Assembly (NCBI GenBank): GCA_001567505.1
Contig: LLEU01000025.1
Span: 62,001-126,000 of the forward strand
DNA: 64,000 nt
Direction of reading: 5' to 3'
Origin: Acidobacteria bacterium OLB17
Lineage (GTDB): Bacteria > Acidobacteriota > Blastocatellia > Pyrinomonadales > Pyrinomonadaceae
Each line of letters starts with the position of its first letter. Positions within the stretch are counted from its first letter, which is position 1. The notes beneath the pieces are model-generated. The model searched no databases. It was not told the DNA's origin and saw only the letters and a list, made by a program, of their open reading frames with translations. Position numbers and translations under genes: made by a program. Of this stretch, positions 2,936-56,533 are shown in pieces.

Positions 2936-3013
2936 TCCCGCTTGTTGAGCAGCTTTGCGGCTGCATCCGTTACAAGCTAAACTTCATCTAATTCCGGGAG
3001 TTAAATCGAGCAA

Positions 3014-5186
3014 ATGACAATAAAGATCGGATCTCTCGTCCTTGCTGTCGCCCTTGTCGGCGCCGGGACGCTTTTTACAACAATGAACGATACAATAGCG
3101 GCCGCGGACACGGGCTTAGTGCCAACGATCGAGTCAGCAAATCCGCTGACGGCCGAATGGACCGGCCCATATGGCGGCGTTCCGCCTTTTGACAAGGTAA
3201 AGATCGCCGACTTTAAGCCCGCAATGGAAACTGCGATGGCCGAGAACCTTAAAGAGATCGACGCCATCGCGAACAACACGGCGAAGCCGACGTTCGCAAA
3301 CACGTTCGTTCCGCTTGAGGAATCCGGGCAGATGCTCGCGCGTCAACATCATTTTCGGCATCTGGGCCTCAAGTATGAACTCGCCCGAGTTCGCACCGAT
3401 CCAGGCCGAAATGCAGCCGAAGCTGGCCGCCCATTACGACAAGATAGTTCAGAACTCCAAGCTTTTCGAGCGCATCAACGCGATCTACACATCAAAGGAT
3501 GTTAAGAAACTTACACCCGAGCAGCAGCGGCTCGTAAAGGTCTATTACGACAACTTTGTTCATTCGGGCGCGCGGCTCGATGCAGCGAGCAAGGCGAAAG
3601 TCTCGGCCCTGAATCAGGAACTCGCCGGCCTGTTTGCGAAATTTAATCAGAATCTTCAGGGCGAAGAAAGCGAGCTCTACGTCCTCATCGATGACGAAGC
3701 TCAGCTCTCCGGCCTGCCGCAGTCGATAAAGGACGCGGCCGCTGCCGACGCTGCCTCGAAGGGTAAAAAGGGCTGGATGATCAGGAATACGCGCTCATCT
3801 ACAGACCCGTTCCTTACCTATGCCGACGATCGCGGCCTCCGTGAGAAAGTGTGGAAGATGTTCGTAAGCCGCGGCGACAACAACGACAGCCGCGACAACA
3901 AGGCTCTCATTACCCGAATCCTAAAGCTCAGGGCCGAGCGTGCGAAGCTTTTCGGCTTCAAGACGCATGCTCACTGGATCCTTGAACAGAAGATGGCAAA
4001 GACGCCCGAGAACGCGATGAAATTGATGGAGGCCGTCTGGCCGGCCGCCATCGGACGTGTCCACGAAGAGGTCGCAGATATGCAAAAGATCGCGGATGCC
4101 GAAGGCAAGGGCGTAAAGATCGAGCCCTGGGATTACCATTACTATATGGAGAAGGTCCGCAAGGCAAAATACGATCTCGACCAGAATGAGGTCAAGCCTT
4201 ACCTTCAGCTCGACAAGATGCGCGAGGCAATGTTCTGGGTCGCCGGCGAGCTGTTTGGAATGAACTTCAAGAAAGTCGATGGCCTTCCCGTTTTCCATCC
4301 TGACGTCACGGTTTATGACGTGACCGATAAGAGGTCCGGCAAGCACATCGGGCTTTGGTACTTTGACCCGTACGCACGCGATGGCAAGGACAGCGGTGCG
4401 TGGATGAATCAGTACCGCAACCAATCACGAATCGACGGCAAAGAGATCACCACCATCGTCTCGAACAACTCGAATTTCGTGAAGGCACGGCCCGGCGAAC
4501 CCGTTCTTATCTCTTGGGATGACGCGGTAACGATGTTCCATGAGTTCGGGCACGCTCTCCACGGCCTCTCCTCGAACGTCACATATCCGACGCTCTCGGG
4601 GACGGCCGTACCTTCCGACTATGTTGAATTCCCTTCGCAGCTTCTTGAGCAGTGGCTCTCGACGCCCGAGGTCCTAAACAAGTTCGCTGTCCACTACAAG
4701 ACCGGCAAGCCGATACCGGCAGAGCTCGTTGAGAAGATTCGCAAGGCTTCGACCTTCAAACAGGGATTTGATACGACCGAGTATCTTGCAAGCGCACTCG
4801 TCGATATGAAAATGCACCTTGCCGGCGACGCCGCGATCGATCCGGACAAATTCGAACGAGAAACGCTCACCGCTCTGAATATGCCGAAGGAGATCGTGAT
4901 GCGGCATCGCACGACGCAATTCCGGCACATTTTCGGAAGTGACGATTACTCGGCCGGCTATTACAGCTATCTCTGGTCGGAGGTTCACTCAGCCGATGCT
5001 TTCACGGCGTTCACGGAAGCCGGAGGCCCGTACGATAAAAAGGTCGCCGCCAAGCTGAAGAAATATGTCTTTTCGATCGGCAATACGATCGATCCGCTTG
5101 AAGGCTATCGACTCTTCCGCGGCCACGACGCACGTGTTGAGGCTCTGATGCTGGATCGAGGATTTCCCGTTCCGAAGAACAAGTAG
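3014..5186 (+). CDS. M3-family metallopeptidase (Dcp/thimet oligopeptidase type), frameshifted
   Basis: A zinc oligopeptidase cleaving short peptides. An N-terminal export segment (IGSLVLAVALVGAGTLF) suggests a periplasmic or membrane-anchored form. The zinc site HEFGH lies at 4539-4553 (WDDAVTMFHEFGHALHG), with the downstream glutamate in the VEFPSQLLEQW helix; DTTEYLASALVDM and YYSYLWSEVHSADAF are typical of the Dcp branch. The reading frame changes by +1 near 3335-3342 in a short CG repeat: joining LEESGQMLAR to VNIIFGIWASSMNSPEF restores the family sequence, about 720 residues in all. The 3' end is two bases from the end of the convergent regulator gene. Confidence 0.85.
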
Positions 5187-13986: not shown

Positions 13987-15203
13987 TCAATGCCGCTTAC
14001 TTTCTTCTTCGAGGGCCTCGCGGATGAGTTTTTCCGCGATCCGCGGCACGGCCTCGCGTGCGGCCTCACGAACAGCCTTCTCCGAAAGCCGGTCCATAAC
14101 ACGCCGTGCGACCGCCTCGATCAACTCGGGCGGAAATGTCTGCTCGCTCGCCTTTTCACCTTCAAGGGCGACCGGGGCACTATGTTCCGGCTCATCTAAT
14201 TTGACCTCATGCCCGGCCGATCCAACCTCGTGATCGACTGTCGGGCACTACCGGCAATTTCCCTGAACGGATCGATATCCTCCGCCAGCATTTCTGGGTC
14301 TTCGACGGTCGAATAGGCCGGCGGCGGAGCCGCTTCCGCCGGATGCTCGAATTTCAATGTATCGATCAACTCATCGTCACCCGCAGCAAAATCAAAGACG
14401 CGGATCAGGGCATCTTCGCCTGTCCGCAACGGCCCGACATCGTCGCTCGGCAGCTCGATCTCCGGTGCCGCTTCGGCTTCCGCGAGAACGAAAGGCTCGT
14501 GCGGCACAAGCGTCCGGACTTCCGGTGCATTGTCGATCTGACGCGTGATCTCTTCGAACTCCTGATTCAATTCGCTCGCGTGAAGAGCGGCTCGCCCCTC
14601 GGCCGCCGGCTCCGTCTCGTCGGAATTCGTCTCCGGCATTGATTCCGCTATAAGTTCGTCGGGCTCAATGAATCCGTCACCATTCGATGCATATTCCTGC
14701 TCGATCTCGCTCTCGACCTCAACGTCCGGATCGTCCTCGATGATCGATTCTGCATAAAGGCTTTCGATGTCCTCGGTCTCGAAGGGCTGAACCTCCCTAA
14801 AATCCTTGACCGCGAGAAGCTCGCCGACCTTTGTGACGACATCTCGGAGCGACTGGAACGGCTTTGTGAAATAATGATCGGCGCCGACGCGCGAAGCCTC
14901 GCCGGGATCGAACGCCTCGAACGAGCCGACCACCAGGATCACGGGGATCGTCCTCGTCGAATCGTCGCCCTTTATCATCTCGCACAGTTGGTAGCCGCCC
15001 ATCCCCGGCATATTCACGTCCGCGATAACACAATCCGGCGAGATCTCGACGAATTTCTCCATCGCCGCGTTCCCGTCGCCAACGGTCGTGACGTCGTAAC
15101 CCTCCTCTGCAAAGGTGAGTTCGATGACTTTTCGAATTGCGACCGAATCATCGGCCAATAAGAGTTTCACTTTTTCCACAGGTGATTTCTTTGTCGATAG
15201 CAA
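13987..15203 (-). CDS. Response regulator with long C-terminal extension, frameshifted
   Basis: An N-terminal receiver domain (KLLLADDSVAIRKVIEL, phospho-acceptor Asp in CVIADVNMPGMGGYQ, lysine in YFTKPF) is followed by about 200 residues of acidic, low-complexity linker. In the frame of the start, translation stops at 14196. One frame back, from about 14240, the sequence continues as DHEVGSAGHEVKLDEPEHS and ends with a conserved-looking helical tail (PPELIEAVARRVMDRLSEK, REAVPRIAEKLIREALEEE) stopping at 13987. The tail is kept in good codon usage, so the gene is read through as one. No DNA-binding domain is visible; the output may be protein interaction. It lies between pdxA and valS. Confidence 0.8.
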
Positions 15204-24701: not shown

Positions 24702-25848
24702 CTACCTTAGCTTCAGGGTCGAGAGACTAAGCAAGGCGAAAAGGATCGCCACGATCACGAAGCGGAACACGATCTTCGGTTCCTTCCAGCCCGACATCTG
24801 AAAATGATGATGCAGCGGAGCCTGCAGGAATATGCGTTTTCCGACGCCAGTACTTCGCTTCGTGAACTTGAAGTATGACACTTGCAGCATCACCGAGAGA
24901 GCTTCCAGAATAAAGACGCCGCCGATGAACGGCAGCAGGAACTCCTGCTTCGTCAAAATGGCGACCGTCCCCAACGCACCGCCGATCGCGAGGCTCCCGA
25001 CATCGCCCATAAAGACCTCGGCCGGCGGCGAATTGAACCACAAGAACCCGAGACTCGCACCGACCATCGCCCCGCAGAAAACGGTCAGCTCACCCGATGA
25101 CGGGTTAAACGTAAGATCAAGATACTCTGCCCAACGCTTATCGCTGCCGACATACGTAAGGGCCGTGAGAGCCGACATCGCGATGAACGTCACGCTTGTC
25201 GCAAGCCCGTCGAGCCCGTCCGTCAGGTTTACTGCATTCGATGAACCGAGCAGGATGAAAACCATAAAGACGAGATAGATCCCGGCCGGGATGACGCTGA
25301 TGCCGCCGGTATCCGCCGTCTCCTTGATGAACGGAATGCTAAGGTTCCATGAATAGTTCGTGAACCAGTACAGCACGCCGAAAACCGCCAACGCCGTTAT
25401 AAGTTGGCCGAAAAGCTTTTGCTTGCCCGTAAGGCCAAGGCTGCGTTTCTTTACGATCTTGATGTAGTCATCCGCGAAACCGATCGCTGCAAAAGCGGTC
25501 GTGGCTCCTAATGCAAGCCATAGGTACACGCCGTCGAGTTTGGCCCATAGCAGCGTCGAGATGATCACCGACCCGATGATGAGCACGCCGCCCATTGTCG
25601 GCGTCCCTTTCTTCGCCTGATGTTCTTCGGAAAGCTCCTCGCGGATCTCCTGCCCGACCTTCATCTCGCGAAGTTTCCTGATCACGGTCTTGCCCAACAG
25701 GAGCGAGATCAGAAGGGCGGTGATCGTCGCCCACGCCGTTCGAAAGGTCACGTACTGGAAAAACGTTGAGTACCTTATAGAAATAGGGTGAGTCCGGCGC
25801 CGTGCCGAATGACCTATACAGGAACTGGTAGAGCAGGTGGAAAAGCAT
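24702..25848 (-). CDS. mraY: Phospho-N-acetylmuramoyl-pentapeptide transferase, frameshifted near the start
   Basis: Transfers phospho-MurNAc-pentapeptide to undecaprenyl phosphate to make lipid I. About 380 residues, ten membrane segments. Motifs: [49 protein letters not shown] and [11 protein letters not shown]. The normal N-terminus ([24 protein letters not shown]) starts at 25848, but one extra base in the GGAAAAACG run (25757-25764) shifts the frame. Removing it gives [19 protein letters not shown]. Internal starts after the break would lose the first membrane helix. Confidence 0.93.
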
Positions 25849-33926: not shown

Positions 33927-35305
33927 TCGATTCCGCGGCCGATCCTGACATTCCCCTGGGATTCGAGCGGCGTAACGCTTGCCTTCCGGCGGCGTCGGTG
34001 CTGCGGCCTTCCGTCCATATCACGGACATCGTCATCATACTGCCTTCCGGAGGCGATCAACAGACTGAGGAGCGTGATGAACATCAGCGTTACGGCTGTG
34101 GTGTGCAGCACGAAGTCAAAAAGGCTGTGTACTAGCACCGCAAAGACCCCTGCGGCGGCTCCGACAGCAACGCCCCGCCGAAATCCATTCTCGACGCGAG
34201 TATTCTTCCTGATCGCCGTGAACACGAGATAGAGGAAGGCACCGGCGATAACCGCACCGATCAGGCCCGCGTTGGCGAGAACCTCCAGGTAGTCGTTGTG
34301 AGCCTGTTCGACCCGCGAAAGCCCGTTCGAGGTATCAAAGGGCGTGTAGGCTTGCCCAAAGGCTCCGATACCGGCCCCAAAAGGCAGGTTCGCGGAAATT
34401 ACCCGCAGCGTGACCGTCCAGATCTGCAGGCGGTCGGTCGTAACGTCACCGGCCTCGGCCGTCTCGGCAAAACGCGAAAGCGAGGTCTCGCCGCCGATCA
34501 TGATCGCTCCAGAGACAATGACCGCGATCGTGACCGCCGTAACGCCGATCAGTATGAGTTTCTTCTTTTTGCCGTGAGCGCTCGTCGTCAGCACAAAGAT
34601 CAGGCCGACCGCCGCCAACATCGCCACAAGCCCGCCGCGAGAGCCGCTCATCAGAAGCGCGATCCCCATCCAGACGACGGCGGTGATATAGAAAAGCTTC
34701 CTGTCCCTTCGGACAGCACCCGACATCAGCATCCCGAGCGGCAGGGCGATGGTCATTTCGATGAAGGCGGCGAAATTGTGCCGATTCACGAAAGAGCCGA
34801 ACGGACTGAGGCGTTCGAGGACGCCGTAGATCCGCGTTGGCGAAAGGAAAGACTGCAAGATCGCAAAGAACGCATACGCGAACCCGAAGATCAAGACGAA
34901 ATTCACGATCTTCTCGATGCGTTTTGCCCTATCGACCGTCGCAAGCATCAAGCCAAAGAAGACCGCGAGCACGAGCATATGCAGTGCCGCCATCGTCGTG
35001 TCAAACGGCGAAAGCGATAGCGTCCTCGGTATTCCGCCGACGCCCGCAATGTCGGCGATGTGGCCGAACGGGATGGTTTGGATGAACGCATAGATCGCAC
35101 CGGCGATCAAAGGCAACTGAATAAAATGCCTGCTGAAGACAACCTCACCGTTGATAAGTCCTGCGGCCAGCCAGATCAACGCGATCGCTGTCATAACGAG
35201 GTAAAAAAGGGCAAGCGTCGGCTGGTGAACGGTGCCGTAGGCGAGCGTCGCGATCGCAACGATCACACAAAGGGAAACAAATATCGAGCTATTGAGGATC
35301 TTCAT
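33920..35305 (-). CDS. O-antigen ligase/polymerase-like membrane protein
   Basis: 461 residues, about ten membrane segments. The region LMSGSRGGLVAMLAAVGLIF and the periplasmic loop FGAGIGAFGQAYTPF with QAHNDYLEVLANAGLIG match the Wzy_C/O-antigen ligase family (the AHNxYLe..a..G motif). It would join or polymerise surface glycans on the outer face of the inner membrane. The start overlaps the upstream TPR gene by four bases. Confidence 0.85.
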   Translation of the reverse strand: MKILNSSIFVSLCVIVAIATLAYGTVHQPTLALFYLVMTAIALIWLAAGLINGEVVFSRHFIQLPLIAGAIYAFIQTIPFGHIADIAGVGGIPRTLSLSPFDTTMAALHMLVLAVFFGLMLATVDRAKRIEKIVNFVLIFGFAYAFFAILQSFLSPTRIYGVLERLSPFGSFVNRHNFAAFIEMTIALPLGMLMSGAVRRDRKLFYITAVVWMGIALLMSGSRGGLVAMLAAVGLIFVLTTSAHGKKKKLILIGVTAVTIAVIVSGAIMIGGETSLSRFAETAEAGDVTTDRLQIWTVTLRVISANLPFGAGIGAFGQAYTPFDTSNGLSRVEQAHNDYLEVLANAGLIGAVIAGAFLYLVFTAIRKNTRVENGFRRGVAVGAAAGVFAVLVHSLFDFVLHTTAVTLMFITLLSLLIASGRQYDDDVRDMDGRPQHRRRRKASVTPLESQGNVRIGRGIDQ

Positions 35306-36589
35306 TGTGCGGTCAGCTCAAAGTCGTCATACCAAAGGCTGCCGATGAGCGGGCAGCCGTCCCCACAGAAAACTCTTGTCGTGCGGATCGAGATCGCCGT
35401 GCAGTTCTCAGGTGCCGTAAAATCAACCGAGATCTGCTGCCAATCGTTCGTACCTTGCGGCATTGGCTGGCTTGAGACGATCAATCGGTCGTCGATCGCA
35501 TTCGTAACATCGATCTGCGGAGGCCCGGCACTTCGCAGATTCTCCGTCCGCACCCAGAACGTCAGCCGATACTTCTTCGAAGGTTTTACGACGACAAGCT
35601 GCGAGGCCGTAAAAAGCGACGTCGCCGAATAATTCTTAAAGCTCAGGCGAAGACTCTTGGAACCCGTATGTTTTACGGCCCCGTCCCAAAGGACATCGAC
35701 CTTTCCCTGCTTCGGGAATTGCCAACCAAAATAGGACGGTTCGGAATTGTTGATTATCCGCTCGAAACCCGCATTCGAGACGGCCTCGGCACGGGCATCA
35801 GCATCGATGTTCAGCTGCCTTGAGAATTCAAGAGCTTCAGGGAATGCACGCTTGTCGAACAGTCCCTGCACCACGACCGACGAGATCTCCGGGAATTTTG
35901 CTTTATCCGCATCGCTCAACTTGTTCCAGATCCGAAGTGCGTCGGCCGCCTGTCCGCGTTGGGCGTAGAACATCGTAAGCGACACGAGCACGTCCGAGCC
36001 GTCGGCGGCAAGTTCCTCGACCTTTTGCGGGTCGTGGTCGAAAAAATCCCAGGCGAGCCCGAACACCTGCATCCGATATTTGTAATTATTTACTGTCGCG
36101 CGTTTCAGCTCCGGTTCGGCTTTTTCTATCTCTCCTTCGCGGATGTAGAAATTCCCGATCTGCATCGTGGGATCGTGTAGGTGGGAGCAAGTTCGACCGC
36201 GTGACGAAATGCCGTTTCCGCGCGTTCCGCATTCCCTGCCTGTTCCGATGCTCGCCCGAGCTCGATCCACCAGCGGTAGTCGTATGGCGAGAGCTTTACG
36301 GCCTCTTCCATAAGGTTCATCGATCGCGTGGCGGATTCGGGCGAGAATGCCTGGCGTTCGATGCCGGACGCGAGCCAGAAACTCATCGGGTCGCCGGGCG
36401 CGAACCTTTGTGCCGACGCAAGCAGTTCGCGGGCGGCCGGATCTGTCGGCACGGTCATTTCGGCGATCATATTGCCGAATTCCCTTCGGACCGACATCCA
36501 GCCGATCACGAAGACGACGCTATCGCCGCCGTAATGCCGAGTTTTGGAATTCCTTTCCTGGTCGAGAGTTTTACGAGATCCGAGGCCAT
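35302..36589 (-). CDS. TPR-type membrane-anchored protein with carbohydrate-binding-like domain, two frameshifts
   Basis: Start at ATG 36589 (MASDLVKLSTRKGIPKLG), a membrane segment that continues after a frame change near 36517 (VVFVIGWMSVRREFGNM). Then TPR-like helices (EAVKLSPYDYRWWIELGRASEQAGN, AFRHAVELAPTY). A second frame change near 36165 leads to MQIGNFYIREGEIEKAEPELKRA. The last 150 residues form a beta-sandwich-like domain (AGFERIINNSEPSYFGWQF, KSLRLSFKNYSA, YDDFEL) resembling carbohydrate-binding modules. Translation is coupled to the O-antigen-ligase-like gene, so a role in surface glycan handling is likely but inferred. Confidence 0.7.
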
Positions 36590-36681
36590 TTAGTATCGAA
36601 AGCACTGCACCGAAAGTTTGCCTGATTTTAGCAAAATTTCCGCAATTTGCATTTTCGCCCTAAGCTTTCTAGTTTTTAGTT

Positions 36682-47288: not shown

Positions 47289-47307
47289 GAACTTGTGTCA
47301 GGCAAAG

Positions 47308-47352
47308 CGATCCCGGCGGGGGACGATCATCCTGCCGGGATCGTCTATTTTT
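47308..47352 (+). terminator. Terminator after the HtrA gene
   Basis: CGATCCCGGC pairs with GCCGGGATCG with a GC-rich interior loop, followed by TCTATTTTT. It lies 20 bp after the stop and overlaps the end of the convergent kinase gene, so it may serve both. Confidence 0.6.
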
Positions 47353-48291
47353 CAAAACTTCGGCCCAACTTTACCTTTCCGCGAAGCATTTCGACATTTT
47401 CGCGGGTGATCTGCCCGGGCAGCGTCGCCAAGCAGTTCGCCGCTCCGCACGCCGCGGCAAGTCGCACCGCGTCCTCATCGTTCAATCCACGCCTCATCGC
47501 CACGGCAAAGCCCGCCACTGTTGCGTCGCCGCAGCCGACCGTCGAGATAACCTCGACTTCGGCGGCCGCACGAAGGATCGGGCCTCAACATCGCGACAAA
47601 ACATCAGTCCGTCCGCACCGAGCGTCAAAGCAACCGCACCTGCTCCGCGCTCTTTTAATTCACGGACTGCCGCGATCGCATCCACCGGGTTCTCGATCGA
47701 GATCCCGGTCGCTGACTCGGCCTCGCTTCGATTCGGCTTGATGAGGTCCGGCCTGCCAGCAAGAGCCGCAGTAAGTGCCGGGCCGCTCGCATCCACGATC
47801 ACTTTCGCACCGGCCTTTTTTGCCGAGGATGTTAGCGCGTAGTATTCATCGACCGGCATTCCGGGCGGCAGGCTCCCGGAAAGGGCCACGATCGCCTCCT
47901 CGCCCGTCTTCCCGACGATATCCGAAAAAACATCGCGGAACTTGCCGAGCTCGGCAGACTCGACAGCACCGCCGGGCTCAAGGATCTCCGTGATCTTGCC
48001 GTCGCGAGCGATGATCTCAAGATTCGTGCGTGTTGCCGACCTTGTCGGGATCGCGACGACGCCGATCCCAAGATCGCGAAGCTGCCGCGCGATCTCATTT
48101 CCGGATTCTCCGCCGAGAAGCCCGATCCAGATGACGTCTTCGCCAAGGGCTTTTGCCGCCATTGCCACGTGCGCCGCCTTACCGCCCGCGAACGGCGTAA
48201 CGGAGTTCGTACGGTTGACCTCACCGACGCGAAGCTCGTCGATCATCAGACGCTTATCGATCGCAGGATTCGCGGAAACGCAGATGATCAT
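47345..48291 (-). CDS. PfkB-family sugar-phosphate kinase (LacC/FruK type), frameshifted
   Basis: A hexose-phosphate kinase of the 1-phosphofructokinase/tagatose-6-phosphate kinase group. N-terminus MIICVSANPAIDKRLMIDEL with GGKAAHVAMAAKALG, LSGSLPPGMPVDEYY, LIKPNRSEAESATG. One base is missing near 47580; after it the frame carries the catalytic STVGCGDATVAGFAVAMRRG (GxGD) and ends at 47345. In this operon the best fit is tagatose-6-phosphate to tagatose-1,6-bisphosphate. The start overlaps the cutC stop by four bases. Confidence 0.82.
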
Positions 48292-49046
48292 TCCTCGGCT
48301 GCTCCTCGCAAGGCTGCTATCGTTGCCGCATCCGTGACCTTCCTTGTGTACTCGGCGTCAAGGTCCTCGCCGCCCATATAGACGCGCGGGTTGCGGAACG
48401 TCATTCCGCTCTCGCACGCAACGAAGCCCGTCGCGTGTATCTCACGAACACCGGTCTTGCGAATTATCGACCGCACATTCGCCTCTCGTATTTCGCCGCA
48501 GGCCATTATCGTAATGCGGCCGGAGGCCCGTTCGACGAGTTCGCCGATGAGTTTTGCCCCGCGTTCGGCCGTAGCCTCTTGGCCGGAGGTCAGGATACGG
48601 TCAACGCCGATCTCTATCAGCGTTTCGAGGGCCTCGAACGGGTCGCGCGTCATATCGAACGCCCGATGGAATGTTACGGACATCGGCCGTGCGAGCCTTG
48701 TAAGTTCGCTTGTCCTTGCCCGGTCGATGGTTCCGTCGGGCGACAAGATGCCGATCACGACGCCGTCAGCCCCGTTCTGTTTGGCAACGCCGATGTCGCG
48801 TTTCATTACCTCGAATTCCACTCCGGAATAAAGAAAATCACCACCGCGAGGCCTTATGATCACGTGCAGTCCAAGTGAGAGTTTCTCGCGTGCAAGCGCG
48901 ATGGCACCCGAGCTTGGCGTCGTGCCGCCCTCAACCAGGTTGTCGCACAGTTCGACGCGATCGGCGCCGCCTTTCTCCGCCGCCATTGCAGATTCGACCG
49001 AATCCACACACACCTCGAGCACGATCTTGTTGTCCGTTCTTGTCAT
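48288..49046 (-). CDS. cutC: CutC family protein
   Basis: 252 residues, TIM-barrel CutC family: LEVCVDSVESAMAAEKGGADRVELCDNLVEGGTTPS, VIIRPRGGDFLYS, VTFHRAFDMTRDPFEALE, ILTSGQEATAERG, EIHATGF. The family was named for copper homeostasis but its biochemical role is not settled. Here it is embedded in a sugar operon: ATGA overlap with the LacC-like kinase and a start directly beside the amidohydrolase stop. An enzymatic role on a sugar derivative is possible. Confidence 0.92.
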   Translation of the reverse strand: MTRTDNKIVLEVCVDSVESAMAAEKGGADRVELCDNLVEGGTTPSSGAIALAREKLSLGLHVIIRPRGGDFLYSGVEFEVMKRDIGVAKQNGADGVVIGILSPDGTIDRARTSELTRLARPMSVTFHRAFDMTRDPFEALETLIEIGVDRILTSGQEATAERGAKLIGELVERASGRITIMACGEIREANVRSIIRKTGVREIHATGFVACESGMTFRNPRVYMGGEDLDAEYTRKVTDAATIAALRGAAEE

Positions 49047-50097
49047 CTACTTCGTCAAGGAAAGCAGCCTCATGGCATTCTCGCGATAGACCTTTTCGAG
49101 TACGTCATCGGGCAAACCGACGCCGTAGATCTGCCACCTGCTGTCGGGATGCGTGCGTCGGATAATCGAAATATTCGTCCCACGTTTCGAGAAAGCGAAA
49201 ATGAAGCCGATACATCTCGACGTCCGGCACGAGGTCGGTCCCGAACAAGATGCGGTCGGCATACTTCAGGAAAAATCGCCGTGCGGTATATGGCTGCCTG
49301 CCGAGCTCCGCCGTCCGCGCGCCGATATCGACCGAAAGGTTCGGGCACTCATCGAGAAGCCGTCCGACGTAAGAGAGGTCTTCCGGCCTTTCAGCAAGAT
49401 GCGCGCAAACGAACTGCGTTCGCGGATGCCGCAGAAAGATCCTATCGCGTTGAGCAAGCAGCTCTTCCTTTGAGAAATGTGAACCATAAAAACCCCAGTC
49501 GGGATGGGCCGCAAGCTCTTCGTATCGCTCGTTGAATCGGTCGATCGGCAGAAAGAATGCGTCCGGGTCGGCAGTGTGGAACATTACGGGCATCTTCAGT
49601 TCGCCGGCCTTCTCAAAAAGGGCGAGACGTTCATCGTCAACCCGGATCACGGACCCGTCAGCATCCTTGAGCGAAAGCCCAAGGTCTTTCCAGATCTTTA
49701 TCCCGCAGAATCCTGCATCACGAAAGCGTTCAAGCCGATCTACGCACCGCGTCCAAAAGCCCTCGGTCTGAAGGTCGCTCCAATCGAACCAGGCTATCGT
49801 CTCAAAACGCGTCTCCGAGACGCTCTTGAATTTACGGTGCATCTCGAACGCCTCTTCGCCAACTCGCATCGTAATATTAACGATCCGCTCGATGCCGCAC
49901 GCGTCCATGATCTTGAGCACTTCGGCCGGCGACTGTGCATCGAGATGATTGTGGTAGTCGATCGACGGGAACTTTGAGCGCGGCACCTCGCTCACGGGAA
50001 CGCGAAGGCCATGCTTCGGTGCGAAATCCGAAAGCGGCAGCTCAACGTGAGCCGAAGCAGTTACCATCTCAATGAACTTATCATCCTTATCAGGCAT
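49047..50097 (-). CDS. Amidohydrolase-2-type TIM-barrel hydrolase, frameshifted near the end
   Basis: About 350 residues from ATG 50097 (MPDKDDKFIEMV), which overlaps the symporter stop by eight bases. Metal-site motifs: IDYHNHLDAQSPAEV, CGIKIWKDLGLSL, MPVMFHTADPDAFF, VCAHLAERPEDL and ILFGTDLVPD. Near 49160 the frame changes, after which WQIYGVGLPDDVLEKVYRENAMRLL forms the usual C-terminal helix. It is not a NagA/AgaA deacetylase by motif; the substrate may be a lactone or acyl sugar derivative. An upstream start is possible but would lie inside the symporter gene. Confidence 0.8.
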
Positions 50098-51928
50098 TTG
50101 CAGTATCTTCGGACGAGCCATCGAGCCGTGGTGCCCAGAGCCGGGAAACGACCCGAAGCAGGACGACGCTGCTGACAATGAAGACGACGAGAAGCCCGAA
50201 GCCGTAATCGAGGCGGCCATAAAGAAAATTACCGAGCGAGAACAACGCAGACCAGATCATCGCACAGCCGGAAACCCACCCAAGAAGCGCCATCGGAATG
50301 TTGTCGCCATTCTCTCGGGCCGTCTCTTTCGAGACACCGGCCTCCTTTCGGATCACCTCCCAGCCCGGGCCCGCAGGATGCACCTTTTTGTAGAACTCAA
50401 TGAGCGTTTGCCGGTCGGTCTGAGGTGCAAGGTATGCCGCCAAAAGCCAGCACACCGTCGTTATCACGACCGTCAGGATCAGTTTCGGAGCAGAGTCCAT
50501 TGCGAGAACGCCTTCCTTCTCAAGTACGATAAATCCGACCGAGACGACGAACGAACTTATCATCGCAACGACCTCGCACCACGCGTTGATACGCCACCAG
50601 TACCAGCGAAGCAGATACAGGAGGCCCGTGCCCGCACCAACCTGAAGGATGATATCGAACGCATTCTTCGCAGAGTCAAGAACGAAGACCATCGCGGACG
50701 AAACAAAAAAGAGCAGGATCGTCGCGACTCGCCCCATCGTGACGTAATGATGTTCGCTGCCGTCCTTTTTGATGAACCGCCGATAAAAATCATGGACAAG
50801 GTAGGATGCTCCCCAGTTCAGGTGCGTGAGTATCGTGGAAGAATTCGCGGCAACAAGTCCTCCCACCATCAGACCGACAAATCCGACCGGAAGGAATTTG
50901 AGCATCGCGGGAAACGCGATGTCGTGGTTTATCAAACTCGGATCGAGATGCGGATACGCGGCCTGAATGTCGGAAAGCTGCGGATAGACGATCAGCGAGC
51001 AAAGGCCGACGAGTATCCACGGCCAGGGACGGAGTACATAATGCGCGAGATTGAAAAATAGTACGGCGCCGAGCGAATCCTTCTCGCTTTTTGATGCAAG
51101 CATTCGCTGAGCGATATAGCTGCCGCCGCCCGGCTCCGCCCCCGGATACCAAACCGCCCACCACTGCACCGCGATCGGCATAATAAAGACGGCGACCGCG
51201 ATCTCCCAGTTATTACTGAAATCGGGCAGGATGTTCAAATATTCAATGCCGCCCGGCCCTTTCATCGCAGAGACCTTTTCCACCATTCCGCTCAGTCCGC
51301 CGACCTGCGGCAGCGTTAGGGCAAAATATGCGGCCGCGACGACGGCCGTCATCTTGATAAAGAACTGGATCATATCGATGACGAGCACGCCCCACAATCC
51401 GGAGTGAGCCGCGAAGGCGACATTGAGCAGTCCGACCACGAGAAGGGTCTGCCACGGGTCGAGCCCGAAAAGGACCGCCGCGATCTTGCAGGCCGCAAGA
51501 TTCACCGTTGCCATGATCAGGCAGTTGAACAAAAAGCCGAGATAGACGGCGCGAAACCCGCGAACGGCCGCCGCAGCCGTGCCCGAATAGCGGATCTCGT
51601 AGAATTCAAGGTCGGTAAGCACGCCCGAACGGCGCCAAAGGCGTGCGTAAAAGAAGACCGTTGCGACGCCCGTAAGCACAAAAGCCCACCAGACCCAATT
51701 CCCTGCAACGCCGTTGCGTCGTACGATGTCGGTAACAAGATTCGGCGTATCGCTGCTGAACGTCGTTGCGACCATCGACAGGCCCGCGAGCCACCACGGC
51801 ACTGACCGCCCCGATGCGAAGAATTCCGACGTATTTTTCGACGACCGTTTGCTGACGAATAATGCGGGTAAAAAACAGATCGCAACGGCGACGAACGCAA
51901 TTACCCAATCAATTAGAGTTACTTGCAC
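50090..51928 (-). CDS. Sodium:solute symporter (SSS/SLC5 family)
   Basis: 612 residues, about 13 membrane segments (IDWVIAFVAVAICFLPALFV onward). SSS features: FASGRSVPWWLAGLSMVATTFSSDTPNLVTD, an extended membrane core, GFVGLMVGGLVAANSSTILTHLNWGASYLVHDFY. Imports a sugar or amino sugar with sodium. GTG start with GGGGGAT just upstream. It replaces a PTS as the uptake route of this operon. Confidence 0.92.
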   Translation of the reverse strand: MQVTLIDWVIAFVAVAICFLPALFVSKRSSKNTSEFFASGRSVPWWLAGLSMVATTFSSDTPNLVTDIVRRNGVAGNWVWWAFVLTGVATVFFYARLWRRSGVLTDLEFYEIRYSGTAAAAVRGFRAVYLGFLFNCLIMATVNLAACKIAAVLFGLDPWQTLLVVGLLNVAFAAHSGLWGVLVIDMIQFFIKMTAVVAAAYFALTLPQVGGLSGMVEKVSAMKGPGGIEYLNILPDFSNNWEIAVAVFIMPIAVQWWAVWYPGAEPGGGSYIAQRMLASKSEKDSLGAVLFFNLAHYVLRPWPWILVGLCSLIVYPQLSDIQAAYPHLDPSLINHDIAFPAMLKFLPVGFVGLMVGGLVAANSSTILTHLNWGASYLVHDFYRRFIKKDGSEHHYVTMGRVATILLFFVSSAMVFVLDSAKNAFDIILQVGAGTGLLYLLRWYWWRINAWCEVVAMISSFVVSVGFIVLEKEGVLAMDSAPKLILTVVITTVCWLLAAYLAPQTDRQTLIEFYKKVHPAGPGWEVIRKEAGVSKETARENGDNIPMALLGWVSGCAMIWSALFSLGNFLYGRLDYGFGLLVVFIVSSVVLLRVVSRLWAPRLDGSSEDTANA

Positions 51929-51958
51929 AAGATCCCCCAGAAACGCAGAAAAAACTAT

Positions 51959-52820
51959 TTACGCGAGCTGACACACGCGGATCTTCGACATCGAGACCGC
52001 CTCGACGGCCTTCACCGCCGGAGCGAACGTGCGACGAAGGTCGATGTCGTCGCTTGCCGCAAGCGATCCTTTTACCGCGAGCGTGAACGCATTCTTGAGT
52101 TCGGTGCCGAAGTTGATCTTCGCCGATCCCGCTTCGGATCGCGTCGCGCATCAGTTCGTCCGGAACTCCCGATCCGCCGTGAAGCACAAGCGCGGTGTCG
52201 CCGACCGCATCCCGAATTTCCCGAAGCCGCGGAAGGTCGAGCTTTACTTCGCCTTTGTAAAAACCGTGCGCCGTGCCGATCGCGACAGCAAGCGCGTCAA
52301 CGCCGGTCTCATCGACGAACCTTCGAGCATCTTCGGGTCTCGTGAAGTAGTCGGCGATGTTCTCGTTGTCGGCATTCTGAGTGACGTGGCCCAACTCGCC
52401 TTCGACCGAGACGCCGGCCCTGTGCGCGATCTCGACGACGCTTCGCGTTAATGCGATATTCTCCTCGAACGGCAGTTTCGAACCGTCGATCATCACTGAC
52501 GAGTAGCCTGCGTCGATGCACCGCTTTGCAAGTTCAAAACTCCCGCCGTGATCGAGATGCAGGGCGATCGGCTGCGAGGACATTCGAGAGGCCGCGCCGG
52601 CCATCGCGACAACAAGTTCGATACCGAGATAATCGATCGTCGAGGCCGTCGTTTGCAGAATTATGGATGCGTTGCACTCGTTGGCAGCATTTATGTGGGC
52701 GCGAAGCGTCTCGGCATTGTAAAAATTCAGAGCGGCGACGGCGCAGCGTCCTTCTCTTGCTGCATTGAGAAGGATGCGGCTCGGTGTGAGGCCAAGCTCG
52801 GAAAAAAGTTCAGATCGCAT
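51959..52820 (-). CDS. Class II fructose/tagatose-bisphosphate aldolase family (KbaY/GatY-like), frameshifted
   Basis: About 285 residues. Zinc-site segments: ALHLDHGGSFELAKRCIDAGYSSVMIDGS, VEGELGHV, and LALHG-type VLHGGSGVPDELM. IGTAHGFYKGEVKLDLPRL fits the ketose-bisphosphate aldolase family. A frame change near 52120 separates the last part, KINFGTELKNAFTLAVKGSL to the stop at 51959. Expected to cleave tagatose-1,6-bisphosphate (or fructose-1,6-bisphosphate) to two triose phosphates. Confidence 0.85.
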
Positions 52821-52867
52821 TCGAAGTTCTATATTGCTTCAACAAAACTCACTTAAAAAACCCACAT

Positions 52868-53810
52868 CTAGGCCCTGAGCGACGCATACATCAAAAACCT
52901 CGCGAGCTCTTCTTGGTCGGGTTGCCCGTCAGTTCCGCCGGGCCGCGATGCGGAGAATGCACCACAGGCATTTCCGATCGTGAGACATTTGCGAAGGTCG
53001 CCGCCGTCAAGGAATGCGTGAACGAATCCGGCGGCGAACGAATCGCCCGCTCCGGTCGAATCCACGGCGTCGATCTTAAATCCCTCGACACGAACGACCT
53101 CTTCCCCACGAAATCCGATCGCGCCTTTTGCCCCGAGTTTTATGGCGACCGTCGGACAGATCTCGTTAAGGCAGCGGCCGGCGGCCTCGACGTCCGACGT
53201 ATCTGCCATCAGCTTCGCTTCATCCTCGTTCATAAAGAGGATATCGGTGTGCCTGCATATCTCGAGCACGTTCTCGTCTCGCCCTTGATTCGGGTCCGAA
53301 TTCGGATCGAACGAGGTCGTCGCTCCCGAAGCTCGAGCCGTGTCGAGCAGGTAGAAAAAGTCAGGCTGCAAGGCTTTTTGGAGATAGTACGATGTGAGAT
53401 GAAGGTGCCTGTGTCCGCGAAATATGTCGGACGGAACCTCCGCAAGCGAGAGCTCCGCGATCGCGCCCAAGAACGTGACCATTGCTCGGTCCTCCGCCGT
53501 GCTCACGACCACCGTGACGCCGGTCTTGGTTTGCACATCGATCTCGATCCGGTCGGTGGCGATCTCCCTTTTTTGCGAGAGCTTCAAGGCAAAAATGGCC
53601 AAAATCGTCGTTCCCGATCTTGCTCACGAACGTGACACTATGCCCGAGACGTGCGATCCCGCAGGCAAAGATGGCCGACGCACTGCCGAGCGCGACATTG
53701 AAATCCGAAGCCAACACCTCGTTGCCAAGGACCGGGCACGTGGCTACGCCCGACGCGATAAGGTCAACATTCAACTCTCCGATCACTACGATCTCGTTGG
53801 AATTCGACAC
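52868..53810 (-). CDS. PfkB/ribokinase-family sugar kinase, frameshifted
   Basis: About 310 residues from GTG 53810, preceded by GGAGGGA. N-terminus IVVIGELNVDLIASGV, VALGSASAIFACGIARLG. The frame moves by +1 at a run of six A near 53585 (ALAKK joins REIATDRIEID). The rest has DILFMNEDEAKLM and the catalytic DAVDSTGAGDSFAAGFVHAFLDGG. First gene of the minus-strand operon. It may phosphorylate the imported sugar, for example galactosamine at position 6; specificity is inferred. Confidence 0.85.
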
Positions 53811-53980
53811 ACTAGTCCCTCCAGACTGGTTGGTTTACTTACATCGCCTTCGGCATTTTTGAGAAGCGTAATATATTATAGAAACCTGAAAAGAACAAGT
53901 AATTTTTCGGACTTTAGAAATACACGAGATACGTCCGGTAGAATGCTGAACCGCTTGAGTGGACGCTCGCAAAAAAAACT
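53811..53980. promoter_or_regulatory. Divergent promoter region between kinase operon and agaS-like gene
   Basis: 170 bp. On the minus strand a perfect TATAAT (53880-53875) lies about 65 bp before the kinase start, with no good -35 at 17 bp. On the plus strand TAGAAT near 53940 also lacks a matching -35. Weak -35 boxes would suit activator- or repressor-controlled promoters. Confidence 0.4.
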
Positions 53981-55168
53981 GTGATCGATCGACCTGATCT
54001 ATTAACGCTCGAAGAGATCCTGCGGCTCTCGGATGATGAGAAGGCCGCATTCGGTTTGAAATATACCCCATCTGAGATCGCACAGCAACCCGAAACTTGG
54101 GGAGAAACTGTGGAGATCGTAAGTTCTTACCGCTCGCGGGTCGAGAACTTCCTTGCCGAATGCCGTCCGACCAACGTTCTGCTGATTGGGGCGGGAACAT
54201 CCGACTACATTGGACGGGCCGTCGCGCCTGCGCTTCGACAAGAATGGAAGACGAATGTGGCCGCGATCCCGAGCACCGATCTGCTGACCGAAATGGACAA
54301 GTTCGTCGAGGCGGGCTCGACGGATCACCGAGATCTTTGGATATCGTTCTCTCGTTCGGGCGACAGTTTTGAGGGCGTGAAGATCCTCGAGCGGGCGTTC
54401 GAGCGATACGCCGATATTCACCACTTGATAATAACGTGCAGCAAGGACGGGCGTATGGCCGAGATGTCAAAGGGACGAGAGAACGTCCTGTGTCTCGTTC
54501 TTGACGACAAGGTGAACGATCGCGGGCTTGCGATGACGAGCTCGTTCACGAATATGGTCGTCGCAGGCCTCTCGCTTGCTCAAATTCACAGGCTTGACGA
54601 TCTTGGATCGACGATCTCGCAGATCTCGAAGATCGCAAGACTCCAACTAAATAAGATCTCCGAAATTGCACGGAGCGTCGCTCAGGAAAAGCACGACCGG
54701 ATCTGCTTTCTCGGAAGCGGTGCCCTAAAGGCCGTTGCAGATGAGAGCGCGCTGAAGGTGCTCGAACTCTCCGGCGGCTATCATTCAACGATGGCCGAAT
54801 CCTTTCTCGGCCTAAGGCACGGCCCGCTCTCTTGGCTGAATAAGAGCGCGCTCGTTGTCGGTTTCGTCTCGAATGATCCTGAAACGGCGAAGGTCGAGCT
54901 CGGCCTTCTTTCGGAAGTTCGGGGGAAAAAGGCGGCGGGTTCGATCCTTGCGATCGCACCGGCCGACTGCGCCGCCGAAGCGATCGCAGATCTCAGTGTC
55001 AGCCTGTCCATCCCAAAAGGCCTGGCGGACGATCTGCTGACGCCTATCTATGTTCTCTGCGCCCAAACCCTCGGCCTCTATTCTTCCCTTGCCTGCGGAC
55101 TCCTACCCGACACTCCAAGCGCCGACGGCAAGATCCAACGCGTCGTCTCAGACATAACCTTCGCCTAG
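53981..55168 (+). CDS. AgaS-type SIS-domain sugar-phosphate deaminase/isomerase
   Basis: 395 residues with two SIS domains. LIGAGTSDYIGRAVAP and FSRSGDSFEGVKILER in the first; FLGSGALKAVADESALKVLELSGGY and AESFLGLRHGPLSWL in the second. This is the AgaS pattern, which deaminates and isomerises galactosamine-6-phosphate to tagatose-6-phosphate. GlmS/NagB activities are less likely on context because kinase and tagatose-type aldolase genes lie opposite. GTG start without a clear ribosome site; an alternative start is possible. Its last four bases overlap the regulator gene. Confidence 0.87.
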   Translation: MIDRPDLLTLEEILRLSDDEKAAFGLKYTPSEIAQQPETWGETVEIVSSYRSRVENFLAECRPTNVLLIGAGTSDYIGRAVAPALRQEWKTNVAAIPSTDLLTEMDKFVEAGSTDHRDLWISFSRSGDSFEGVKILERAFERYADIHHLIITCSKDGRMAEMSKGRENVLCLVLDDKVNDRGLAMTSSFTNMVVAGLSLAQIHRLDDLGSTISQISKIARLQLNKISEIARSVAQEKHDRICFLGSGALKAVADESALKVLELSGGYHSTMAESFLGLRHGPLSWLNKSALVVGFVSNDPETAKVELGLLSEVRGKKAAGSILAIAPADCAAEAIADLSVSLSIPKGLADDLLTPIYVLCAQTLGLYSSLACGLLPDTPSADGKIQRVVSDITFA

Positions 55169-56189
55169 CGGCTTGCGCGGCCGTCAACTGCGTGGCGGTG
55201 CAGCTCGCAGGCCTTTTGGGCCTTGGCGGCGATCAAGTCGCGAAGCTTTTTTGGCTTTTCTGCGGTGCAGTTCCCGGCGTATGTGAGACAGAAGCGAGCG
55301 ACTGCTTCGAGTCCGTTCTCGCCGGTCTTGAAGACAAGGCGAAGGCGTCCGTCCGGGAGTTCCTCACGGCTTTCCGTCGGGTGGAATGCGCCACGTTCCC
55401 GCATCCATTGCGCTTGATAGCTGTCAAATACGATCGAGACCGTGGTCGAGCGTCCGCCGCGTGTCATAAAAAAACCGCGGCTCAAGTATCTGTCTCGATC
55501 CCACTTTCTCTGCTTCTCGAACGTGCGTCCGGTCAATGCAAGATTCGAGATCCGCCCGACATGGAAATCGCGAAAATCCTTCGCCTTATGATCGAACGAG
55601 ATCGCGTACCAATCGCCGGCAAAATTGTGAAGAAGATGAATGTCCGCCGTGCGTTTCGAGTGCTTTCCTGTGTGCGGTGAAAAATAGTCGAACGCGACCG
55701 TTTCCTGCGCCATCGCGGCACGAGCAAGACGCTCCAGGATTTCGGATCGGCCGCAACATTTGGTAGATCCTGGAAGCTGGTGTTGTCACTCAACGTTGCC
55801 AGATCGACCGAAAGCTCTTGTGGGAACATCGATGCGAGCTTCGTAAACGTTGCGGCCAATTGGACCGCTTCAGCCGTCTTACCGGTAAACCTGAGTGCGT
55901 GCTCCGCAATGAAGAATGCAAGCAGGTCACCTTCCGTAATCGGCTGAAGCGGCAAGGACCACCCCGGTGTGGTATAGCAAAATCCTTTCTTTACATAGTC
56001 ATAAATGATCGGCCCGCCAAACTCATTCTTTAGCATCGAGAGGTCGCGCTTGATCGTCCGAATGCTGACTCCCATTTTTTCCGCAAGCGTCGCGACCGAC
56101 GGAAACTTCCCCTTAGCGATCTCAAGGTGGATGTCAGTGATCCTCTTTAACGCCCTAAGATATACATTCTGTCGAACCGCTCCACTCAC
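55165..56189 (-). CDS. WYL-domain HTH transcriptional regulator, frameshifted
   Basis: About 340 residues. Start GTG 56189 (VSGAVRQNVYLRAL) is chosen over a longer frame that enters non-coding sequence. N-terminal winged helix (FPSVATLAEKMGVSIRTIKRDLSMLKNEFG), then a middle domain to FQDLPNVAA. Near 55730 the frame changes and continues as MAQETVAFDYFSPHTGK, with the WYL-like DWYAISFDHKAKDFRDFHVGRI. WYL domains usually sense a ligand. It probably controls the neighbouring sugar genes. Confidence 0.8.
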
Positions 56190-56421
56190 TTTGAAAAAAT
56201 ATAACACGGCCGAAGTGCCACAGAACGGCACTCCCGCTCGACTTTGAAAAAAATTACTGCGCCTTGCTGTCGGAGGAGCGCTGAACTTAGGCTGGGCGGG
56301 AAGACGCTTCGACAAACTCATGCCCAGCTCGAAACGGCCTCCATATCGAGTCCTAGCGAACCGAAGATGATCGCCGGCAGGCAGCTAAGCTCAAGTAGGC
56401 ACCTCAGGCAAAAAACAAAAA

Positions 56422-56456: not shown

Positions 56457-56533
56457 TGGTCGGGACGGCGAGATTTGAACTCACGACCTCTCGCACCCCA
56501 AGCGAACGCGCTACCAGACTGCGCTACGTCCCG
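56457..56533 (-). tRNA. tRNA-Pro(GGG)
   Basis: 77 nt on the minus strand. Acceptor CGGGACG pairs with CGTCCCG, then discriminator A and an encoded CCA. Anticodon stem TTCGC/GCGAG with loop TTGGGGT gives anticodon GGG (56499-56497). The T-loop TTCAAAT is canonical. Confidence 0.97.

Follow-up and report, generated by a model that had tools for sequence, protein, structure and literature searches.

We analyzed a 64,000-nucleotide stretch (referred to here as the window; positions 62001-126000 of contig C25) of a 2.97-Mb draft genome of a soil bacterium (89.7% complete), i.e., a Pyrinomonadaceae-related metagenome-assembled genome (MAG) of the Acidobacteriota. The window contains a cluster of genes for two PfkB kinases, a class II aldolase, an SSS symporter, a PF04909 amidohydrolase (AH2), a CutC protein, an AgaS-type SIS protein, and a WYL regulator (Table 1). 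Profile matches and open reading frames (ORFs) placed all eight families about where a preliminary description of this DNA had put them. The cluster probably encodes catabolism of N-acetylgalactosamine (GalNAc) independently of a phosphotransferase system (PTS), ending in glycolytic intermediates.

Six of the genes lie on the minus strand, where the order of transcription is first PfkB kinase, aldolase, SSS symporter, AH2, CutC, and LacC-like kinase, followed by a hairpin. The second kinase and CutC genes overlap by 4 bp, CutC abuts AH2, and AH2 overlaps the SSS gene by 8 bp. Because of these overlaps, the abutting ends, and the terminal hairpin, we regard the genes as an operon, as had been proposed. 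The AgaS gene is indeed opposite to the operon, but the WYL gene, which was said to be so as well, is on the same strand as the operon.

Table 1. Features of the cluster (window coordinates)
Feature	Position	Strand	Remarks
15-bp GC-rich hairpin followed by a T run, possible operon terminator	47307..47344	not assigned	strong terminator-like hairpin
LacC/1-phosphofructokinase (1-PFK)-type PfkB kinase (second kinase), candidate tagatose-6-phosphate kinase	47345..48291	-	frame break at 47557-47581
CutC family TIM-barrel protein	48288..49046	-	PF03932, 1.3e-71
AH2, PF04909 amidohydrolase, candidate GalNAc-6-phosphate deacetylase	49047..50097	-	2-nt deletion near 49140
SSS-family sodium/sugar symporter (PF00474)	50090..51928	-	intact, 92% identity to relatives
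Class II ketose-bisphosphate aldolase (PF01116), candidate tagatose-1,6-bisphosphate aldolase	51959..52820	-	1-nt insertion near 52120
Ribokinase/IolC/tagatose-kinase-like PfkB kinase (first kinase), candidate GalNAc 6-kinase	52868..53810	-	1-nt insertion at A6G3 run (~53570); break site ~53570-53590
AgaS-family SIS protein, candidate galactosamine-6-phosphate deaminase/isomerase	53981..55168	+	intact, divergent from operon
HTH + WYL/WCX regulator	55165..56230	-	PF08279 and PF13280/PF25583 in separate ORFs

AgaS matched TIGR02815 over its full length (E value, 7.5e-85; 285 bits, below the cut-off of 529) and also aligned over its full length with putative tagatose-6-phosphate isomerases in the PDB (3odp and 3c3j; 1e-54). 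The LacC-like kinase was present in seven of the eight AgaS-carrying genomes of the genus, with intact orthologues at loci L036-L038; intact orthologues reached the cut-offs for hexose kinases (TIGR03168) and ketose-bisphosphate aldolases (TIGR00167). For the more specific names LacC and KbaY/GatY given in the preliminary description, no cluster protein reached the curated cut-off of the equivalog models lacC, tag_bisphos_ald, and KbaY. On the basis of family and context, the LacC/1-PFK-type protein would fit tagatose-6-phosphate, leaving the ribokinase-like PfkB protein for GalNAc. The best PDB match of the symporter was a sodium/glucose cotransporter (2xq2), and profile scans of the cluster detected no PTS gene.

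We compared the cluster with a genus sample of 41 genomes and a phylum sample of 396 genomes (G numbers, genomes; L numbers, loci); the relatives of the source genome in the named collections were Acidobacteria and Pyrinomonadaceae MAGs. The six minus-strand genes and AgaS recurred in the same order and with open frames in four same-genus genomes (G002, G013, G017, and G022); thus, the arrangement is not due to chance. In three of these four genomes, a gene of ~754 codons between AH2 and CutC encodes a glycoside hydrolase family 20 (GH20) beta-N-acetylhexosaminidase with an F5/8C domain. In the source genome and in G022, GH20 was found elsewhere (unlinked). In G004, the AgaS-kinase-aldolase-SSS half adjoins GH2, SGNH, BNR sialidase-like, GH63-like, and GH109 genes, and fragments of AH2 occur on other contigs, one of them with GH20. 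The halves are likewise on separate contigs in G051, where AgaS-kinase-aldolase-SSS is accompanied by GH2 and BNR genes and AH2-CutC-GH20-GH35-LacC by genes for a sugar-binding protein and a GH27-like alpha-galactosidase. Whether whole or split in two, the cluster was always beside enzymes releasing GalNAc, N-acetylglucosamine (GlcNAc), or galactose.

Two further observations concern these loci. In G051, where the cluster is split, GH20 and CutC flank a gene for a 365-aa protein that has no Pfam match (L213:6468-7565). In addition, NYN-domain ribonuclease-like genes adjoin the cluster in three relatives (L037:10961-12394, L038:1-1149, and L040:6433-7800), with OST-HTH in two of them.

An AgaS alignment searched against the genome contigs yielded 45 loci, for the most part from Acidobacteriota. 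Many loci of Terriglobia (Granulicella, Edaphobacter, and others) have the gene for a homologous PfkB kinase directly beside AgaS; encoded nearby are GatZ/KbaZ, GH109, AH2, a DeoR regulator, a TonB-dependent receptor, and an MFS sugar transporter. For Terriglobia, in which we observed no LacC-type gene next to AgaS, the kinases could have other roles than in Pyrinomonadaceae. Counted over 49 acidobacterial AgaS loci, the neighbors were PfkB kinase (32 loci), AH2 (23), DeoR (23), TonB (23), KbaZ (18), GH109 (10), and NagA (0). The earlier proposal of a PTS-free galactosamine/tagatose-type operon, in which a symporter and a kinase would take the place of the PTS, is largely supported, and the operon is conserved across Acidobacteriota.

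The galactosamine-type class of substrate proposed previously also stands, but GalNAc is the likelier compound, because relatives carry GH20 in the operon and GH109, sialidase, GH2, GH35, and GH27-like genes beside its halves. GalNAc use requires a deacetylase, and this substrate therefore entails a deacetylation step that the preliminary description left unassigned. In the proposed pathway, extracellular or periplasmic glycosidases (GH20, which is unlinked here, and, in relatives, a linked GH20 together with GH109 and others) would release GalNAc, which the SSS symporter would import with sodium and the ribokinase-like PfkB kinase would convert to GalNAc-6-phosphate. A deacetylase (most likely AH2, otherwise an unlinked NagA) would then form galactosamine-6-phosphate, which AgaS would deaminate and isomerize to tagatose-6-phosphate. 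The LacC/1-PFK-type kinase would produce tagatose-1,6-bisphosphate, and the class II aldolase would cleave it to dihydroxyacetone phosphate and glyceraldehyde-3-phosphate. We infer every substrate, every reaction, the direction of transport, and the step of AH2 from family membership, conserved gene order, co-occurrence, and genomic association with GalNAc-releasing enzymes. AgaS is a signature gene of GalNAc and galactosamine use (PMC5583593), and agaS of Escherichia coli has been assigned as a galactosamine-6-phosphate deaminase/isomerase (PMC3668189).

AH2 matched the PF04909 Amidohydro_2 profile (3.1e-17). The copy in the window had no match at an E value of ≤1e-3 to NCBIfam, including the NagA profile TIGR00221, and its sequence had no match at 0.01 in the PDB. 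Residues H49, H51, K134, H175, H234, and D289 (i.e., an HxH, His, His, Asp set plus Lys) were invariant in 21 orthologues, with Lys134 apparently near barrel strand 4 according to the secondary structure of the model; such a set would suit a metal-dependent hydrolase. The AlphaFold model (predicted local distance difference test score, 80) resembled amidohydrolase barrels, including lactonases and decarboxylases (Z, about 17 to 21), a fold that, as modeled, does not decide the reaction.

The distribution of AH2 followed that of AgaS. Within the genus, AgaS was present in 8 of the 41 genomes. The same 8 and no others carried AH2 in strong or split form, and a single weaker paralogue occurred outside them (Fisher test, 9e-8 counting the paralogue; Fisher values for this co-occurrence ignore shared ancestry and are inflated thereby). 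By comparison, nagA was present in 32 of the 41 genomes and did not covary with AgaS (p 0.66). In the phylum sample, 29 genomes had a strong AH2 (~500 bits or more); AgaS was present in 23 of these, and the two genes were ≤5 kb apart in 16, while the expected chance proximity is about 0.4% per genome for 10 kb. The linkage includes a divergent second type of AgaS (L197, L202, and L203), from which AH2 is ~0.2 kb away. Transporters and aldolase subunits vary between groups, and AH2 stays with AgaS. At L197 (11771-12967), a PF00365 phosphofructokinase gene adjoins AH2 and possibly replaces the LacC-type tagatose-6-phosphate kinase.

NagA/AgaA was beside AgaS in none of the 49 acidobacterial loci, as judged by TIGR00221 and a profile of our own. 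The latter was not blind, as it detected NagA as a neighbor of AgaS at 2 of 12 loci from other phyla (L164 and L175), and NagA was accordingly rejected as a linked partner of AgaS in Acidobacteriota. Moreover, nagA was not found in G051 (78% complete), which has AgaS and AH2. Because NagA/AgaA is absent from the acidobacterial AgaS loci and AH2 occurs in about half of them, we consider AH2 the strongest candidate for a dedicated GalNAc-6-phosphate deacetylase, a role that we assign tentatively, at somewhat less than an even chance. We are a little more guarded about the joint proposal that AH2 represents a new, non-orthologous family of GalNAc-6-phosphate (or GalNAc) deacetylases and that the ribokinase-like PfkB protein is the GalNAc 6-kinase. 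A dedicated deacetylase makes sense, since the Km of a mycobacterial NagA for GalNAc-6-phosphate is 40-fold above that for GlcNAc-6-phosphate (PMC6016474). Our literature search on PF04909 sugar deacetylases and on CutC in sugar operons found nothing relevant.

CutC and the amidohydrolase had both been singled out as genes foreign to the standard pathway. CutC was linked in four relatives and at L213, but we rejected it as a core member because it is present in 17 of the 41 genus genomes, many of them without AgaS, and we regard it as a looser passenger of the cluster. AH2, in contrast, is not incidental to the cluster; it is the gene that accompanies AgaS most faithfully.

Besides the cut-offs missed by AgaS and by the equivalog matches, several findings weigh against these assignments: the nearest folds of AH2 are lactonases, decarboxylases, and uncharacterized amidohydrolases, with NagA not among the matches listed; 6 AH2 genomes of the phylum sample lack AgaS, and 17 of its 40 AgaS genomes lack a strong AH2; and unlinked nagA occurs in nearly all of these genomes, including most of the 40. 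The main rival to AH2 as the deacetylase is a NagA acting from elsewhere in the same pathway, with AH2 serving as, e.g., a sugar lactonase or a repair enzyme for oxidized by-products. We consider this a real possibility, if below an even chance, given how widespread nagA is, the lactonases and decarboxylases among the closest folds of AH2, and the ability of NagA to stand in for AgaA in E. coli in vivo (PMC3668189). It sits poorly, however, with the covariation of AH2 rather than nagA with AgaS, with the lack of nagA at the AgaS loci and in G051, and with the poor activity of mycobacterial NagA on GalNAc-6-phosphate, and among the operon genes we recognized none for a cytosolic sugar dehydrogenase as a source of such a lactone. 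A role of the cluster in the use of free galactosamine or of another tagatose/galactose-type sugar, with no need for deacetylation, is improbable. An operon without AgaA/NagA is taken as a mark of galactosamine-only use in gut bacteria (PMC5583593), and the first kinase weakly matches tagatose kinase (NF049991); yet GH20 in the operon and the adjoining GH109 of relatives release N-acetylated sugars, and the cluster has a conserved amidohydrolase. Cultured Terriglobia are reported to grow on GalNAc but weakly or not at all on glucosamine (PMC11354219 and PMC12935467). An inositol- or fructose-type cluster, with IolC as the kinase and IolJ or a fructose-bisphosphate aldolase as the aldolase, is very improbable. 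Although the first kinase matches IolC (TIGR04382), its partial frame scored only 100.7 bits versus a cut-off of 300; the aldolase scores about equally against fructose-bisphosphate and tagatose models. Such pathways do not involve AgaS, no IolB-, IolD-, or IolE-type family was found among the cluster proteins, and the surrounding glycosidases point to amino sugars and galactosides.

Five of the eight cluster genes (i.e., those for the LacC-like kinase, the amidohydrolase, the aldolase, the first PfkB kinase, and WYL) are frame broken, the last having its HTH domain in a frame other than that of its WYL domain, and the operon might therefore be decaying in this organism. Relative to same-genus genomes, the clear breaks were 1- to 2-nt indels, one of them at an A6G3 run. 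We compared 20-kb stretches of the source genome with these relatives. Outside the cluster, 131 conserved genes were covered and 22 of them were broken, with 25 shifts in 156 kb; within it, the same test showed 4 of 7 genes to be broken, with 4 shifts in 7.5 kb. The excess in the cluster (Fisher p 0.024; Poisson p 0.034; both post hoc) leaves room for local decay of this copy. Breaks were rare when the relatives were compared with one another (1 to 4 of 142 to 170 matches per genome), whereas about one conserved gene in six was broken across the source assembly (G000); examples in the window are 768-1696, 3005-5177, 13990-15179, 24705-25848, and 35305-36652. AgaS, CutC, and the SSS gene, whose protein is 92% identical to its relatives, remain intact. 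Because the breaks are genome-wide and the operon is intact in same-genus genomes, a high indel error rate of this assembly is a likelier explanation than gene death, and we consider a pseudogene operon unlikely. Any pseudogene claim from this window needs checking against the reads.

The WYL gene overlaps AgaS tail to tail by 4 bp (55165-55168). On its other side, it adjoins a tRNA-Pro (GGG) gene (56457-56533), which is followed by a strong hairpin. In the relatives examined, WYL was seen neither beside AgaS nor at the place of the tRNA-Pro; it may thus have been inserted here, at a site adjoining the tRNA. A role as regulator of the pathway was not supported, WYL having gone unseen at these AgaS loci, in which DeoR-type genes are common. 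With regard to nagA, the form found in the clade is short (323 aa), lacks the N-terminal part of the profile (L088:10358-15032 and L110:7366-12038), and is encoded directly beside a 1,203-aa outer-membrane-receptor-like protein; the two genes are possibly a separate unit for amino-sugar scavenging.

The PTS-free logic of GalNAc use is not new in principle. The aga pathway of Shewanella (AgaP permease, AgaK kinase, AgaA-II deacetylase, and AgaS; PMC2996990 and PMC12118421) combines PTS-free import, a cytosolic kinase, and deamination and isomerization by AgaS, as we propose here. The genes of the acidobacterial set differ, being those for an SSS symporter, a PfkB kinase, and a separate LacC/1-PFK-type kinase, with the PF04909 amidohydrolase and CutC instead of a linked AgaA/NagA. 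The E. coli aga/gam regulon (PMC3668189) shares AgaS, a GatY/KbaY-type class II aldolase, and, in acidobacterial relatives, a DeoR-type regulator; it differs in its PTS genes, in AgaA, and in KbaZ, which is missing from the Pyrinomonadaceae version but present in Terriglobia. The NagA/AgaA deacetylases (TIGR00221), whose step AH2 would replace, have in common with it the TIM barrel of the amidohydrolase superfamily, but AH2 belongs to PF04909 and does not match TIGR00221. Peatland Acidobacteria MAGs have been noted to carry GH109 and GalNAc enzymes, in connection with GalNAc use (PMC6018796), and two cultured Terriglobia are reported to grow on GalNAc, one of them without growth on GlcNAc or glucosamine (PMC11354219 and PMC12935467). 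The accessible parts of these three reports do not describe the operon or the amidohydrolase. As far as the literature consulted shows, what is new is that AgaS loci of Acidobacteriota have a conserved PF04909 partner and no NagA-type deacetylase linked to them.

The gene set described here may account for the ability to grow on GalNAc that has been reported for isolates. In the acidobacterial loci examined, AgaS has no deacetylase gene of the usual kind in its neighborhood, and we nominate one well-conserved, uncharacterized amidohydrolase in its place. If this assignment is true, annotation could call GalNAc use in a phylum for which a search for linked AgaA would predict galactosamine-only use. 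If both AH2 and the ribokinase-like PfkB kinase act as proposed, Acidobacteriota would have a GalNAc pathway in which two early steps are carried out by families new to them.

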